A DNA stretch of 52,981 nucleotides from NCBI GenBank assembly GCA_015488485.1, contig WFNR01000100.1, positions 1 through 52,981 of the forward strand, given 5' to 3'. The translations under genes and the position numbers were made by a program. Positions within the stretch are counted from its first letter, which is position 1; each line of letters opens with the position of its first letter. The DNA comes from Cyclobacteriaceae bacterium. GTDB taxonomy: Bacteria > Bacteroidota > Bacteroidia > Cytophagales > Cyclobacteriaceae. Under the pieces are notes generated by a model, which saw nothing but the letters and a program-made list of their open reading frames with translations, did not search any database and had not been told where the DNA came from. Positions 367 to 1,820 of this stretch are shown piece by piece.

Positions 367-1043
367 AAAAATCCTCCTCCGACCTCAGTCATCATACCTC
401 GGACCTCCGACCTCCGTCCTCCGGCCTCAGATCTCCGTCCTCTACCATCGCCATCATAGGTGCCGGAGGCCTTGGCCGTGAAATCCGCAACCTGGTAGAG
501 CGTCACCACCACTTTGCCGGTTTTTTTGACGATGTAAGCCAGGAGCAGCATTATCTGGGTACCCTGCAAGACATCACCGCGGAGAGTGACTACGCTTTCC
601 TGATCGCCCTGGGCAATCCGCAGGCCAAGAAGCAGGTAGCTGAGCGGTTGGCCCCCCTGGGGATTGCCTATACCAACCTGGTAAGCCGGCACAGCATCTT
701 GCCGGCCGAAGCCCTACGGGGGCAAGGCATTGTGGTTTGTGACGGGGTAGTGGGTACCGTAAACATCCGTCTGGGCAACCATGTGCTGCTCAATCTCAAC
801 GTTACCATTGGCCACGATGTCACTCTTGGCGACTACTGCTCGGTAATGCCGGGGGCCAATATATCGGGTGGCGTAACCATTGGCGAGGCTACCCTCATTG
901 GTTCGGGGGCTGTGATTCTACAGGGAATTACCATAGGCAATAACGCCCGGGTAGGAGCCGGGGCAGTGGTGACCAAAGATGTGCCCGCCAACACCACGGT
1001 GGTAGGCGTACCGGCTAAACCACGCGCCCCCTCGTTCCCCTAA
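363..1043 (+). CDS. PglD/NeuD-like sugar O/N-acetyltransferase with repeat-derived ends
   Basis: This is an acetyltransferase of the PglD/NeuD/VioB group, which acetylates amino groups on nucleotide sugars or sialic-acid-like sugars for surface polysaccharides. The N-terminal Rossmann-like domain starts at about residue 28 (IAIIGAGGLGREI). Left-handed beta-helix hexapeptide repeats follow from about residue 125 (LGNHVLLNLNVTIGHDVTLG) and end in GAGAVVTKDVPANTTVVGVPAKP. Two things are odd. Residues 1-27 are Ser/Pro/Leu-rich and are encoded entirely by an imperfect GACCTCCG-type repeat array. The last residues (RAPSFP) and the stop lie in a palindromic repeat at 1021-1073. No ATG, GTG or TTG suits the normal domain start, so the array may supply the start codon. 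The rest of the polysaccharide cluster probably lies left of the window. Confidence 0.85.
   Translation: MKKSSSDLSHHTSDLRPPSSGLRSPSSTIAIIGAGGLGREIRNLVERHHHFAGFFDDVSQEQHYLGTLQDITAESDYAFLIALGNPQAKKQVAERLAPLGIAYTNLVSRHSILPAEALRGQGIVVCDGVVGTVNIRLGNHVLLNLNVTIGHDVTLGDYCSVMPGANISGGVTIGEATLIGSGAVILQGITIGNNARVGAGAVVTKDVPANTTVVGVPAKPRAPSFP
371..442. repeat. Imperfect GACCTC(C/G)G tandem array
   Basis: This stretch repeats variants of GACCTCCG/GACCTCGG/GACCTCAG several times. It shares an exact 14-base word, GACCTCAGTCATCA, with a second array near 1897-1925 (copies at 381-394 and 1911-1924). It is read in frame as the N-terminus of the acetyltransferase. From memory, arrays of this kind lie beside S23-type four-helix-bundle genes in other Bacteroidota; that association was not tested here. 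Confidence 0.75.
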
Positions 1044-1073
1044 AGGGGAGGCCCAGCGCGCCTGGCAGATTCA
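1021..1073. repeat. Palindromic repeat, copy A (CCCCTAAAGGGG core)
   Basis: This is the left copy of a roughly 50-base repeat with a CCCC-TAAA-GGGG hairpin core at 1037-1048, followed by a GC-rich AGCGCGC block. Its other direct copy is at 1768-1820. About 44 of the first 47 aligned bases agree by eye. The TAA in the hairpin loop is the stop codon of the acetyltransferase. After this repeat, 1074-1198 is an AT-rich non-coding stretch in which nothing else was recognised. Confidence 0.8.
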
Positions 1074-1198
1074 CGCTTTTACTCCCATTCATGCAGCTAC
1101 AAATAAGTCCTTTATGGATTAAAGAATTTATACAGAATGTCAGACAAGTGTAACTAAAATTTTGCTTTCATTCCAATCAGAAAAAGTTTAAGCTATAA

Positions 1199-1651
1199 AT
1201 GAAAAATAGCAGATATAACAATAAACAAAAGGATAACCCAAAACCTGAACATGAAGTAGGGATGCACTTTGGTGCTCCATCTAATATATTTATCTATGCG
1301 AAAGAGTTACGCACAAAGCTAACACTGGAAGAGAAAATTCTTTGGGATAAACTAAGAAACAAATTATTGGGATATAAATTTCGCAGGCAACACCCTTTGT
1401 ACAAATATATTGCAGATTTTTATTGCCATAGGCTTAGATATGTAATAGAAATAGATGGCCCCTATCATTTAAACAAGCTACAAAAGCAGTATGATATCAA
1501 ACGGAGCGATGAGATGAACGAATTAGGAATCTTTGTAAGAAGATTTAAAAATGAAGAAATACAAAACAACTTGGCTGATGTTCTGGTCAGAATTCAGGCG
1601 GACCTCAAGCTAAGAGAGAAAATTTTACATCAACGCTTAAATAAGGAGTAG
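1199..1651 (+). CDS. DUF559 domain protein, Vsr-like PD-(D/E)XK nuclease fold
   Basis: This 150-residue protein matches the DUF559 pattern, a small Vsr/MTH-related endonuclease-like fold. Residues 33-50 hold the signature LRTKLTLEEKILWDKLR. It is followed by LGYKFRRQHPLYKYIADFYC, where the second element carries the acidic residue. Then comes VIEIDGPYH (usually EIDG-H in the family) and a final RRFKNEEI. These are candidate metal and catalytic positions, but no activity is established for most members. The gene is AT-rich and strongly basic. It stands alone and is bracketed by palindromic repeats (1021-1073 on the left; 1661-1699 and 1768-1820 on the right), as would be expected of a small repeat-associated or mobilised unit. 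The ATG at 1199 is the only sensible start. Confidence 0.85.
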   Translation: MKNSRYNNKQKDNPKPEHEVGMHFGAPSNIFIYAKELRTKLTLEEKILWDKLRNKLLGYKFRRQHPLYKYIADFYCHRLRYVIEIDGPYHLNKLQKQYDIKRSDEMNELGIFVRRFKNEEIQNNLADVLVRIQADLKLREKILHQRLNKE

Positions 1652-1660
1652 CCAATGCGT

Positions 1661-1699
1661 AGGGAGTTCCTCCTTTAGGAGGTTAGGAGGGAGCGCTGG
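1661..1699. repeat. Diverged inverted copy of the palindromic repeat
   Basis: The core CCTCC-TTTA-GGAGG at 1669-1682 is a perfect 5-bp-arm hairpin, followed by TTAGGAGGGAGCGCTGG. Read on the opposite strand it resembles copies A and B (1021-1073 and 1768-1820), with the same TTTA/TAAA loop, a nearby G-run and a GCGC block. It lies 10 bases after the stop of the DUF559 gene. Homology to copies A and B is an inference from pattern, with considerable divergence. Confidence 0.5.
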
Positions 1700-1767
1700 T
1701 AGCTCGATCAATACATGATTGTACTGAGTAATAGATCTTTTTCTGAAAGGTTAAGAGATAGCCGTCC

Positions 1768-1820
1768 CACGCGCCCCCTCGTTCCCCTAAAGGAGAGGCT
1801 CAGCGCGCATGGCAATATTC
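1768..1820. repeat. Palindromic repeat, copy B
   Basis: This is a direct copy of the 1021-1073 element. It begins with the same CACGCGCCCCCTCGTTCCCC block and carries an imperfect CCCC-TAAA-GGAG hairpin. Copies A and B bracket the DUF559 gene at a spacing of about 750 bases. Confidence 0.8.

Follow-up and report, generated by a model that had tools for sequence, protein, structure and literature searches.

A DUF559 gene bracketed by triplex-type palindromes: a candidate REP-like mobile unit

Repetitive extragenic palindromes (REPs) and the REP-associated tyrosine transposases (RAYTs) are the closest described parallel to the locus considered here, a DUF559 gene bracketed by short palindromes in a 52,981-base stretch of a Cyclobacteriaceae bacterium (contig WFNR01000100.1, positions 1 to 52,981; this whole stretch is called the window). 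In the RAYT system, enzyme and repeat co-diverge. The likeness lies in the many short palindromes per genome, in the low-copy nuclease gene flanked by copies of them, and in the solo copies; in the source genome (G000), high-copy dispersed palindromes match the flanks of the enzyme gene. REPs have also been reported inside genes (excerpts of PMC3733652). The flanked enzyme of G000, however, is a Vsr-fold DUF559 protein instead of an HUH tyrosine transposase, and its repeats are C/G-rich and of the triplex type, with TGAGG common at the outer end; REPs carry a GTAG or CGTC tag at one end. Since the flanked gene is not a RAYT, the system is not a member of REP/RAYT.

The repeats have a second relative in TM_ECO (PIT, BoxC) of E. 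coli. In excerpts, Holder et al. 2015 (PMC4666352) describe its layout as a C-rich stem, a loop, a G-rich stem, a 3-nt spacer and a second G-rich stem, report triplex formation in vitro, link the motif to genome instability, and count 23 copies in strain MG1655; they also state that they found no mobility function near TM_ECO. The strings 'Bacteroid', 'endonuclease' and 'Vsr' are absent from the main text of that paper. The motifs flanking DUF559 genes share the TM_ECO architecture, and the exact pattern adjoins the E. coli DUF559 gene ycjD; beyond the earlier description, we propose a partner gene and report motifs of this class near DUF559 genes of Bacteroidota, Chloroflexota, Patescibacteria and Latescibacterota. 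Titles and abstract openings of the open-licence PubMed Central literature on DUF559 held nothing on such repeats (CRISPR was one topic), and no open-licence work there was recognised as joining DUF559 with triplex-type repeats, although a prior description elsewhere is possible.

We propose that the DUF559 gene belongs, together with the triplex-type palindrome on either side, to one REP-like mobile unit whose spread is driven by DUF559, and assign this reading a probability of about 0.6. That DUF559 and the palindromes belong together can be said with high confidence, and that they form mobile units is probable. We rate the DUF559-palindrome system as a new kind built of two known parts, because it is REP/RAYT-like without a RAYT and related to homing nucleases with paired palindromic ends.

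Triplex-type palindromes around DUF559 genes

The first-pass annotation had described copies of a repeat of about 50 bases, together with a diverged inverted copy, around a lone DUF559 gene, and each of these parts was recovered in the window:

1020..1067, + strand: left palindrome, triplex type; third strand CCCCCT at 1027-1032, core TCCCCT-AA-AGGGGA at 1036-1049, third strand outward
1199..1651, + strand: stand-alone DUF559 gene, 150 aa; family residues E45, D73, E84, D86, H90 and D99 present
1655..1699, - strand: right palindrome, diverged and inverted; core CCTCCT-TT-AGGAGG at 1669-1682, third strand AGGAGGG at 1685-1691, outward
1767..1814, + strand: further copy in direct orientation relative to the left palindrome, from the repeat comparison; no call by the detector

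The Pfam profile search assigned PF04480 (DUF559) to 1199-1651 with E 2.8e-31, and the protein had this one Pfam domain and no transposase domain. Positions 1020-1067 and 1767-1814 were direct copies with 94% identity across 48 nt, while 1655-1679 and 1786-1810 gave a weak inverted match (72%). The palindromes at 1036 and 1669 both had an intrastrand triplex layout, in which a mirror copy of one arm lies beyond the hairpin (CCCCCT-CGT-TCCCCT-AA-AGGGGA on the left and CCTCCT-TT-AGGAGG-TT-AGGAGGG on the right); their stems were shorter than those of TM_ECO and their sequence was not the exact TM_ECO pattern. A detector requiring a hairpin with a C-rich 5' arm and a mirror-repeat third strand called these two motifs and no others in the full window, flanking the gene and pointing outward, and called 0, 0, 1, 1 and 0 motifs in five shuffles of the window by two-base blocks. 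It missed the copy at 1767-1814, the core of which has a mismatch. Because the only two motifs called flank the gene and both point outward, the gene's own bracket is the inverted pair; the annotated bracketing by palindromes was upheld, with an inverted in place of a direct pair, and we read the copy at 1767-1814 as a separate solo neighbour outside the DUF559 unit. The Rfam search over 900-2000 returned a lone match (E 3.6) below the family cut-off. No empty site was found for the window unit; in the one other genome of the genus that was compared, the best match to the neighbouring acyltransferase was 35% identical.

The density of motifs was then compared between sequence within 300 bp of a DUF559 domain and sequence more than 450 bp away, in three sets. 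The stand-alone set held 76 matches in 74 loci, among the matches listed, with an open frame of at most 235 aa (one has an in-frame TAA); the long-frame set held 21 loci given identifiers among the best-scoring DUF559 matches; and the named-genome set held the best 80 of 581 confirmed loci, with phyla assigned from record titles and two unknown. In this check, which the annotation had named, palindromes were enriched near DUF559 genes in all three. Stand-alone genes had 1.74 versus 0.084 motifs per kb (20.7-fold), with at least one motif at 48/76 matches and motifs on both sides at 19; entering two-gene loci once gave 1.70 versus 0.078 per kb and 46/74 loci with a motif. The long-frame set showed 2.94 versus 0.115 per kb (25.5-fold; motif in 19/21 loci, both sides in 13) and the named-genome set 2.25 versus 0.073 per kb (30.9-fold; 56/80, both sides in 34). 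Within the latter, 47 loci assigned to Bacteroidota (one Ignavibacteria included) were enriched 33.9-fold and the 33 others 27.6-fold (22/33 with a motif). Loci with a motif numbered 34/47 in Bacteroidota, 8/8 in Chloroflexota, 10/16 in Pseudomonadota, 2/2 in Patescibacteria, 1/1 in Latescibacterota, 1/2 in a Desulfobacterota-like group, and none of the single Nitrospirota and Nitrospinota loci or the two of unknown phylum. The annotation had placed such a system in Bacteroidota, where the pairing was indeed found; it is not confined to them, since it also occurs in Chloroflexota, Pseudomonadota including E. coli, Patescibacteria and Latescibacterota.

The long-frame loci had been meant as a negative control and were discarded as such because they carried the same palindromes. 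PF05635, a family of small genes in the same class, was chosen instead; 30 loci were taken, three were too short and dropped, and the remaining 27 (16.2 kb) had 0 motifs within 300 bp. Ordinary transcription terminators, or GC-rich repeats arisen by chance, are a very improbable account of the hairpins: they do lie near gene ends, and hairpin ends are common among bacterial genes, but the mirror third strand, the placement on both sides, the presence inside open reading frames, and the lack of any near PF05635 all speak otherwise.

GC-rich perfect hairpins were likewise concentrated near stand-alone genes: the 45.4 kb up to 300 bp from the domain held 140, and roughly 218 kb lying farther off than 450 bp held 58. 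The palindromes of stand-alone genes differed between loci, yet the left and right flanks of one gene often shared sequence, the best inverted match exceeding 40 shuffles in 47/76 and the best direct match in 45/76. When the motif closest to the domain was taken on either side, the three sets together gave 51 inverted pairs (35 with outward and 16 with inward third strands), 12 direct and 3 ambiguous. Insertion sequences and miniature inverted-repeat transposable elements have a transposase gene, or terminal inverted repeats with target-site duplication; here inverted pairs prevail among the scorable ones (51/63), the gene has no transposase domain, and no clear duplication was seen by eye at the MetH and LeuS sites. 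Outward polarity of the third strands held in the long-frame set, where orientation was nearly fixed (left 19 outward, 0 inward; right 16 outward, 2 inward), and in the Bacteroidota of the named-genome set. A common outer sequence was a G-arm, three bases, and GGGG(T/A)GAGG. Across 193 motifs (four sets, two two-gene loci entered twice), the third-strand consensus was close to NNNGGGGtGAGG, and TGAGG was present in 96 (31/72, 11/33, 22/44 and 32/44).

In-frame units, empty sites and the DUF559 protein

The 21 long frames were host proteins with an in-frame DUF559 domain: nine LeuS, seven MetH, two acetyl-CoA synthetases and, as read, one each of IleS, PurL and HsdR (20/21 identities were scanned and one, L072, was read by eye). 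In several of these frames the palindromes are translated, for example as LTPNPSPKERG and PLSLGEGQGER; no such repeat peptides were found in the open-licence PubMed Central literature. The DUF559 domain of the PurL-like frame (L062) lies at the C-terminal end, and in one LeuS (L070, G201) the host frame stops soon past the unit. In L054 (G007:C12) the host frame is HsdR-like (type I restriction), so that one nuclease unit, the DUF559 domain with its palindromes, sits within another nuclease.

Congeners with and without the insert were compared in genus g26, which has nine genomes. The match to the MetH site was split in two in G020, G100, G193 and G220 and continuous in the remaining five genomes. 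At base level, G220, G100 and G020 carry units, and the site is short in G246, G133 and G164 (51, 54 and 69 nt); in G271 this site holds a solo palindrome (102 nt), and a unit is present at a second site of MetH (L068). At the LeuS site six genomes were short (93-102 nt) and G064 carried a full unit (639 nt), while a remnant resembling a palindrome (111 nt) lay in G220, and G164 had a longer loop of unrelated sequence (132 nt). The MetH comparison covered 16/30 loci, L273 and four older inserted loci, five of these 21 lying outside the search expression; for LeuS, 13/30 loci did not fit the search expression and were left out. Rickettsial palindromic elements resemble these 21 long-frame loci in being inserted in frame into proteins, and excerpts of PMC3733652 describe the host proteins as likely functional. 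The DUF559 insert differs in carrying a nuclease domain. We know of no enzyme for the rickettsial elements.

Other in-frame repeats were also seen at these places: the LeuS loop of L283, L291 and L295 and the MetH loop of L254 and L257 hold heptamer-like runs (AAATTCCAGATTCC) and unrelated palindromes. Because other in-frame repeats occupy the same loops, the LeuS and MetH loops look like general landing places.

An alignment of 18 members conserved, among others, T42, E45, W49, Q64, D73, E84, D86, G87, H90 and D99, of which we read E84, D86, H90 and D99 as the EDxHD residues. Searched against the Protein Data Bank, the alignment profile matched 3hrl, named as NGO0050 of Neisseria gonorrhoeae (E 3.6e-31), and 3r3p, the homing endonuclease I-Bth0305I (E 1e-6). 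The AlphaFold2 model of the window protein (predicted local distance difference test score 86.5) superposed on 3hrl with Z 15.6 and a root-mean-square deviation (rmsd) of 1.0 over 93 residues (Foldseek E 7e-8), on I-Bth0305I with Z 12.5 and rmsd 2.5 over 95 residues (E 8e-4), and on Vsr with Z 9.8 and rmsd 2.3 over 99 residues (E 0.05). By these comparisons the window protein is predicted to adopt the Vsr-type catalytic fold, in which the acidic and histidine residues are conserved.

This kinship bears on two other explanations. In the first, DUF559 would be a Vsr-like housekeeping nuclease for repair or hairpin processing that protects unstable palindromes, maintaining and not spreading them, and chance or regulation would keep the gene beside them. 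The fold match to Vsr agrees with it, as does VsrA of Caulobacter, a DUF559 protein which excerpts of PMC12907096 tie to DNA damage and propose to act in mismatch repair. Vsr and VsrA share the fold with the window protein, but the latter is flanked by palindromes; DUF559 and palindromes also sit in the open frames of LeuS, MetH, acetyl-CoA synthetase and others, with congeners showing a short MetH or LeuS site, which is the behaviour of a mobile unit, and up to 11 DUF559 matches per genome are ill-suited to one repair gene. We therefore consider a housekeeping role quite unlikely.

In the second, DUF559 is a classical free-standing EDxHD homing endonuclease gene at fixed sites of conserved genes, and the palindromes are parts of the target or scars of repair. 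I-Bth0305I belongs to the EDxHD homing family and is described as multi-domain (review, PMC3943268, in excerpt). Its relatedness to the window protein in sequence and fold (E 1e-6; Z 12.5) is as homing would have it, and so is the fact that different genera carry the insert at the same LeuS and MetH sites. The window protein, however, is 150 aa long with one Pfam domain, and the system has palindromic ends in pairs and numerous solo repeats; none of the 76 stand-alone matches is in a long frame, and their contexts differ; the insert keeps the host reading frame; and homing at homologous alleles alone does not account for tens of solo palindromes per genome. Homing of this kind is slightly less probable still than a housekeeping role.

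Repeat-rich genomes, co-divergence and E. coli ycjD

The source genome G000 (3.17 Mb, 182 contigs, 94.9% complete) contained 71 exact copies of CCCCTNNAGGGG, compared with 1 of the reversed, uncomplemented control pattern, and a 61-nt query from the left palindrome gave 40 scored matches. In many contigs (C25, C36, C88, C106, C121, C85, C89 and others) a palindrome lies no more than about 200 bp from the start or the end, and the true copy number is for this reason probably above 71. Most of the G000 palindromes read with their flanks (loci L017-L049) lay between two sorts of heptamer or octamer tandem runs, mostly C/T-rich heptamers to one side, with GAAGCTT-like or GCGGAA-like runs opposite, and were often paired about 240 bp apart; these pairs with their tandem runs resemble a composite repeat unit.

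RAYT as the agent was rejected for G000. Its sole Y1_Tnp (RAYT-like) match had neither CCCCTNNAGGGG nor a triplex-type motif in its 2.5-kb locus, in keeping with the earlier suggestion of a system not based on RAYT. This Y1_Tnp gene (L154, G000:C68) has an adjacent inverted repeat of its own, CGTTTCGTCCTC...GAGGACGAAACG, along with tandemly repeated GGCTCTCGAAGGCA.

Across 295 genomes of the class, a DUF559 match was present in 139. The hairpin CCCTCTCC..GGAGAGGG reached at least 10 copies in 41 genomes, and DUF559 was found in 37/41 of these versus 102/254 of the others (odds ratio 13.8, p 9e-10, with kinship not modelled); repeat-rich genomes thus had DUF559 more often, which favours the annotation's suggestion. 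Genomes rich in CCCCTNNAGGGG, defined as at least 6 copies and more than three times the control (which leaves out G001 with 18 versus 12 and G043 with 9 versus 6), had DUF559 in 20/24 cases versus 119/271 (p 2e-4, kinship again not modelled). A few of the counted copies come from the flanks of DUF559 genes themselves. Within genomes, the likeness of DUF559 proteins followed the likeness of their palindromes (rho 0.55, reached by 1 of 1000 permutations, 61 pairs). Leaving out four recent duplicates gave rho 0.37 (12 of 2000 permutations; 47 pairs, four genomes), and all pairs of 140 loci gave rho 0.19 (0 of 300 permutations).

The gene ycjD of E. coli MG1655 is annotated as DUF559. In the 12 kb read, the exact published TM_ECO pattern occurred once, its near end 167 bases past the 3' end of ycjD, and 200 shuffles gave 0; with 23 copies in MG1655, the chance of one so near a given gene is about 0.004. 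We then sampled E. coli in even steps (60 rows, one plasmid row dropped). The 37 chromosomes with ycjD had a median of 21 further similar candidate places and the 22 without it a median of 7.5 (p 4e-8, which is not a probability for independent events as the strains are related). A PF04480 search of a 14-genome control panel did not report E. coli. In two strains lacking ycjD, ATCC 25922 and FDAARGOS_1285 (L247, L248), the place beside fabI is taken by a resistance-nodulation-division (RND) efflux operon and its TetR-type regulator. A simple empty site for ycjD was accordingly rejected, and because the operon occupies the place in both strains, the change there is larger than the unit.

Several observations weigh against a DUF559-driven mobile unit. 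G000 has 71 exact cores but a single DUF559 gene. No DUF559 was detected in 4/24 genomes rich in CCCCTNNAGGGG or in 4/41 rich in the CCCTCTCC hairpin (G045, G117, G120 and G151 in one tally; G045, G075, G149 and G259 in the other), and neither test of co-occurrence models kinship. In the sampled E. coli chromosomes that lack ycjD, between 2 and 23 similar candidate places are still present, at least 15 in 9/22. The detector called no motif within 300 bp at 28/76 stand-alone matches and 24/80 named-genome loci. Third strands had no outward preference around stand-alone genes (left 21 outward, 15 inward; right 22 and 21) or outside Bacteroidota (left 9 and 10; right 13 and 13). By eye, no clear target-site duplication appeared at the MetH and LeuS sites compared. 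Finally, Vsr-fold nucleases hydrolyse DNA and do not themselves join strands, so that host repair must be invoked.

Some of these points would suit another agent, such as a RAYT-type transposase, replication slippage or template switching, that moves the palindromes with DUF559 as a passenger between copies. Many solo repeats lie far from DUF559, repeat-rich genomes and E. coli chromosomes without the gene keep their repeats, and DUF559-less pairs about 240 bp apart are common in G000. A random passenger, however, would not be of the same family beside repeats in at least five phyla, nor would it co-diverge with the flanking repeat inside one genome; the lone Y1_Tnp match of G000 had no such motif at its locus, and the excerpts of Holder et al. 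(PMC4666352) report no transposase or integrase near TM_ECO. The passenger explanation is in our judgement unlikely, though the least so of the alternatives.

We thus favor the mobile unit driven by DUF559. The suggestion, made from the window, that DUF559 spreads or maintains the palindromes gains support from association, co-divergence and empty sites; from these sequence comparisons we infer the spread itself. The gene would encode a small Vsr-fold, homing-type nuclease, and the palindromes (C-rich arm, loop, G-rich arm, and a mirror third strand often ending in TGAGG) would be its recognition ends. On single-stranded DNA, for example at a replication fork, the palindrome may fold into a hairpin or triplex; the cognate enzyme would nick there or at a new target, and host repair would copy the palindrome, or the palindrome-gene-palindrome unit, into the break. 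Scattered solo palindromes would be non-autonomous copies, spread by DUF559 now or formerly. Whether a whole RAYT-independent REP-like class exists, including PIT/BoxC/TM_ECO, in which a lone Vsr/EDxHD-fold DUF559 (YcjD) recognises and spreads triplex-forming palindromes and itself, also in frame within conserved proteins, is in our view evenly balanced.

If the model is right, a likely agent would be named for triplex-type repeats, which are reported from many bacterial genomes and whose spread has so far been unexplained, and DUF559, a family of 'unknown function', would gain a role. There would be a second, independently evolved REP-like system beside RAYT, and the stretches LTPNPSPKERG and PLSLGEGQGER in LeuS and MetH of some Bacteroidota would be accounted for. 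E. coli K-12, with both ycjD and about 23 repeats, offers a direct testing ground.

Neighbours of the DUF559 unit in the window

Upstream of the DUF559 gene, an acyltransferase open reading frame (363-1043) ends within the left palindrome. Before it, a PF05635 four-helix-bundle gene lies at 4-366, and heptamer repeats of CCTCCGACCTC follow at 376-445, with more at 1885-1933 past the DUF559 unit. A link between PF05635 and heptamer arrays was considered and found unsupported, with a period-7 array near 1/27 PF05635 loci. An exosortase-like membrane protein (PF09721) is encoded farther downstream, at 2114-2596, past both the acyltransferase gene and the DUF559 unit.

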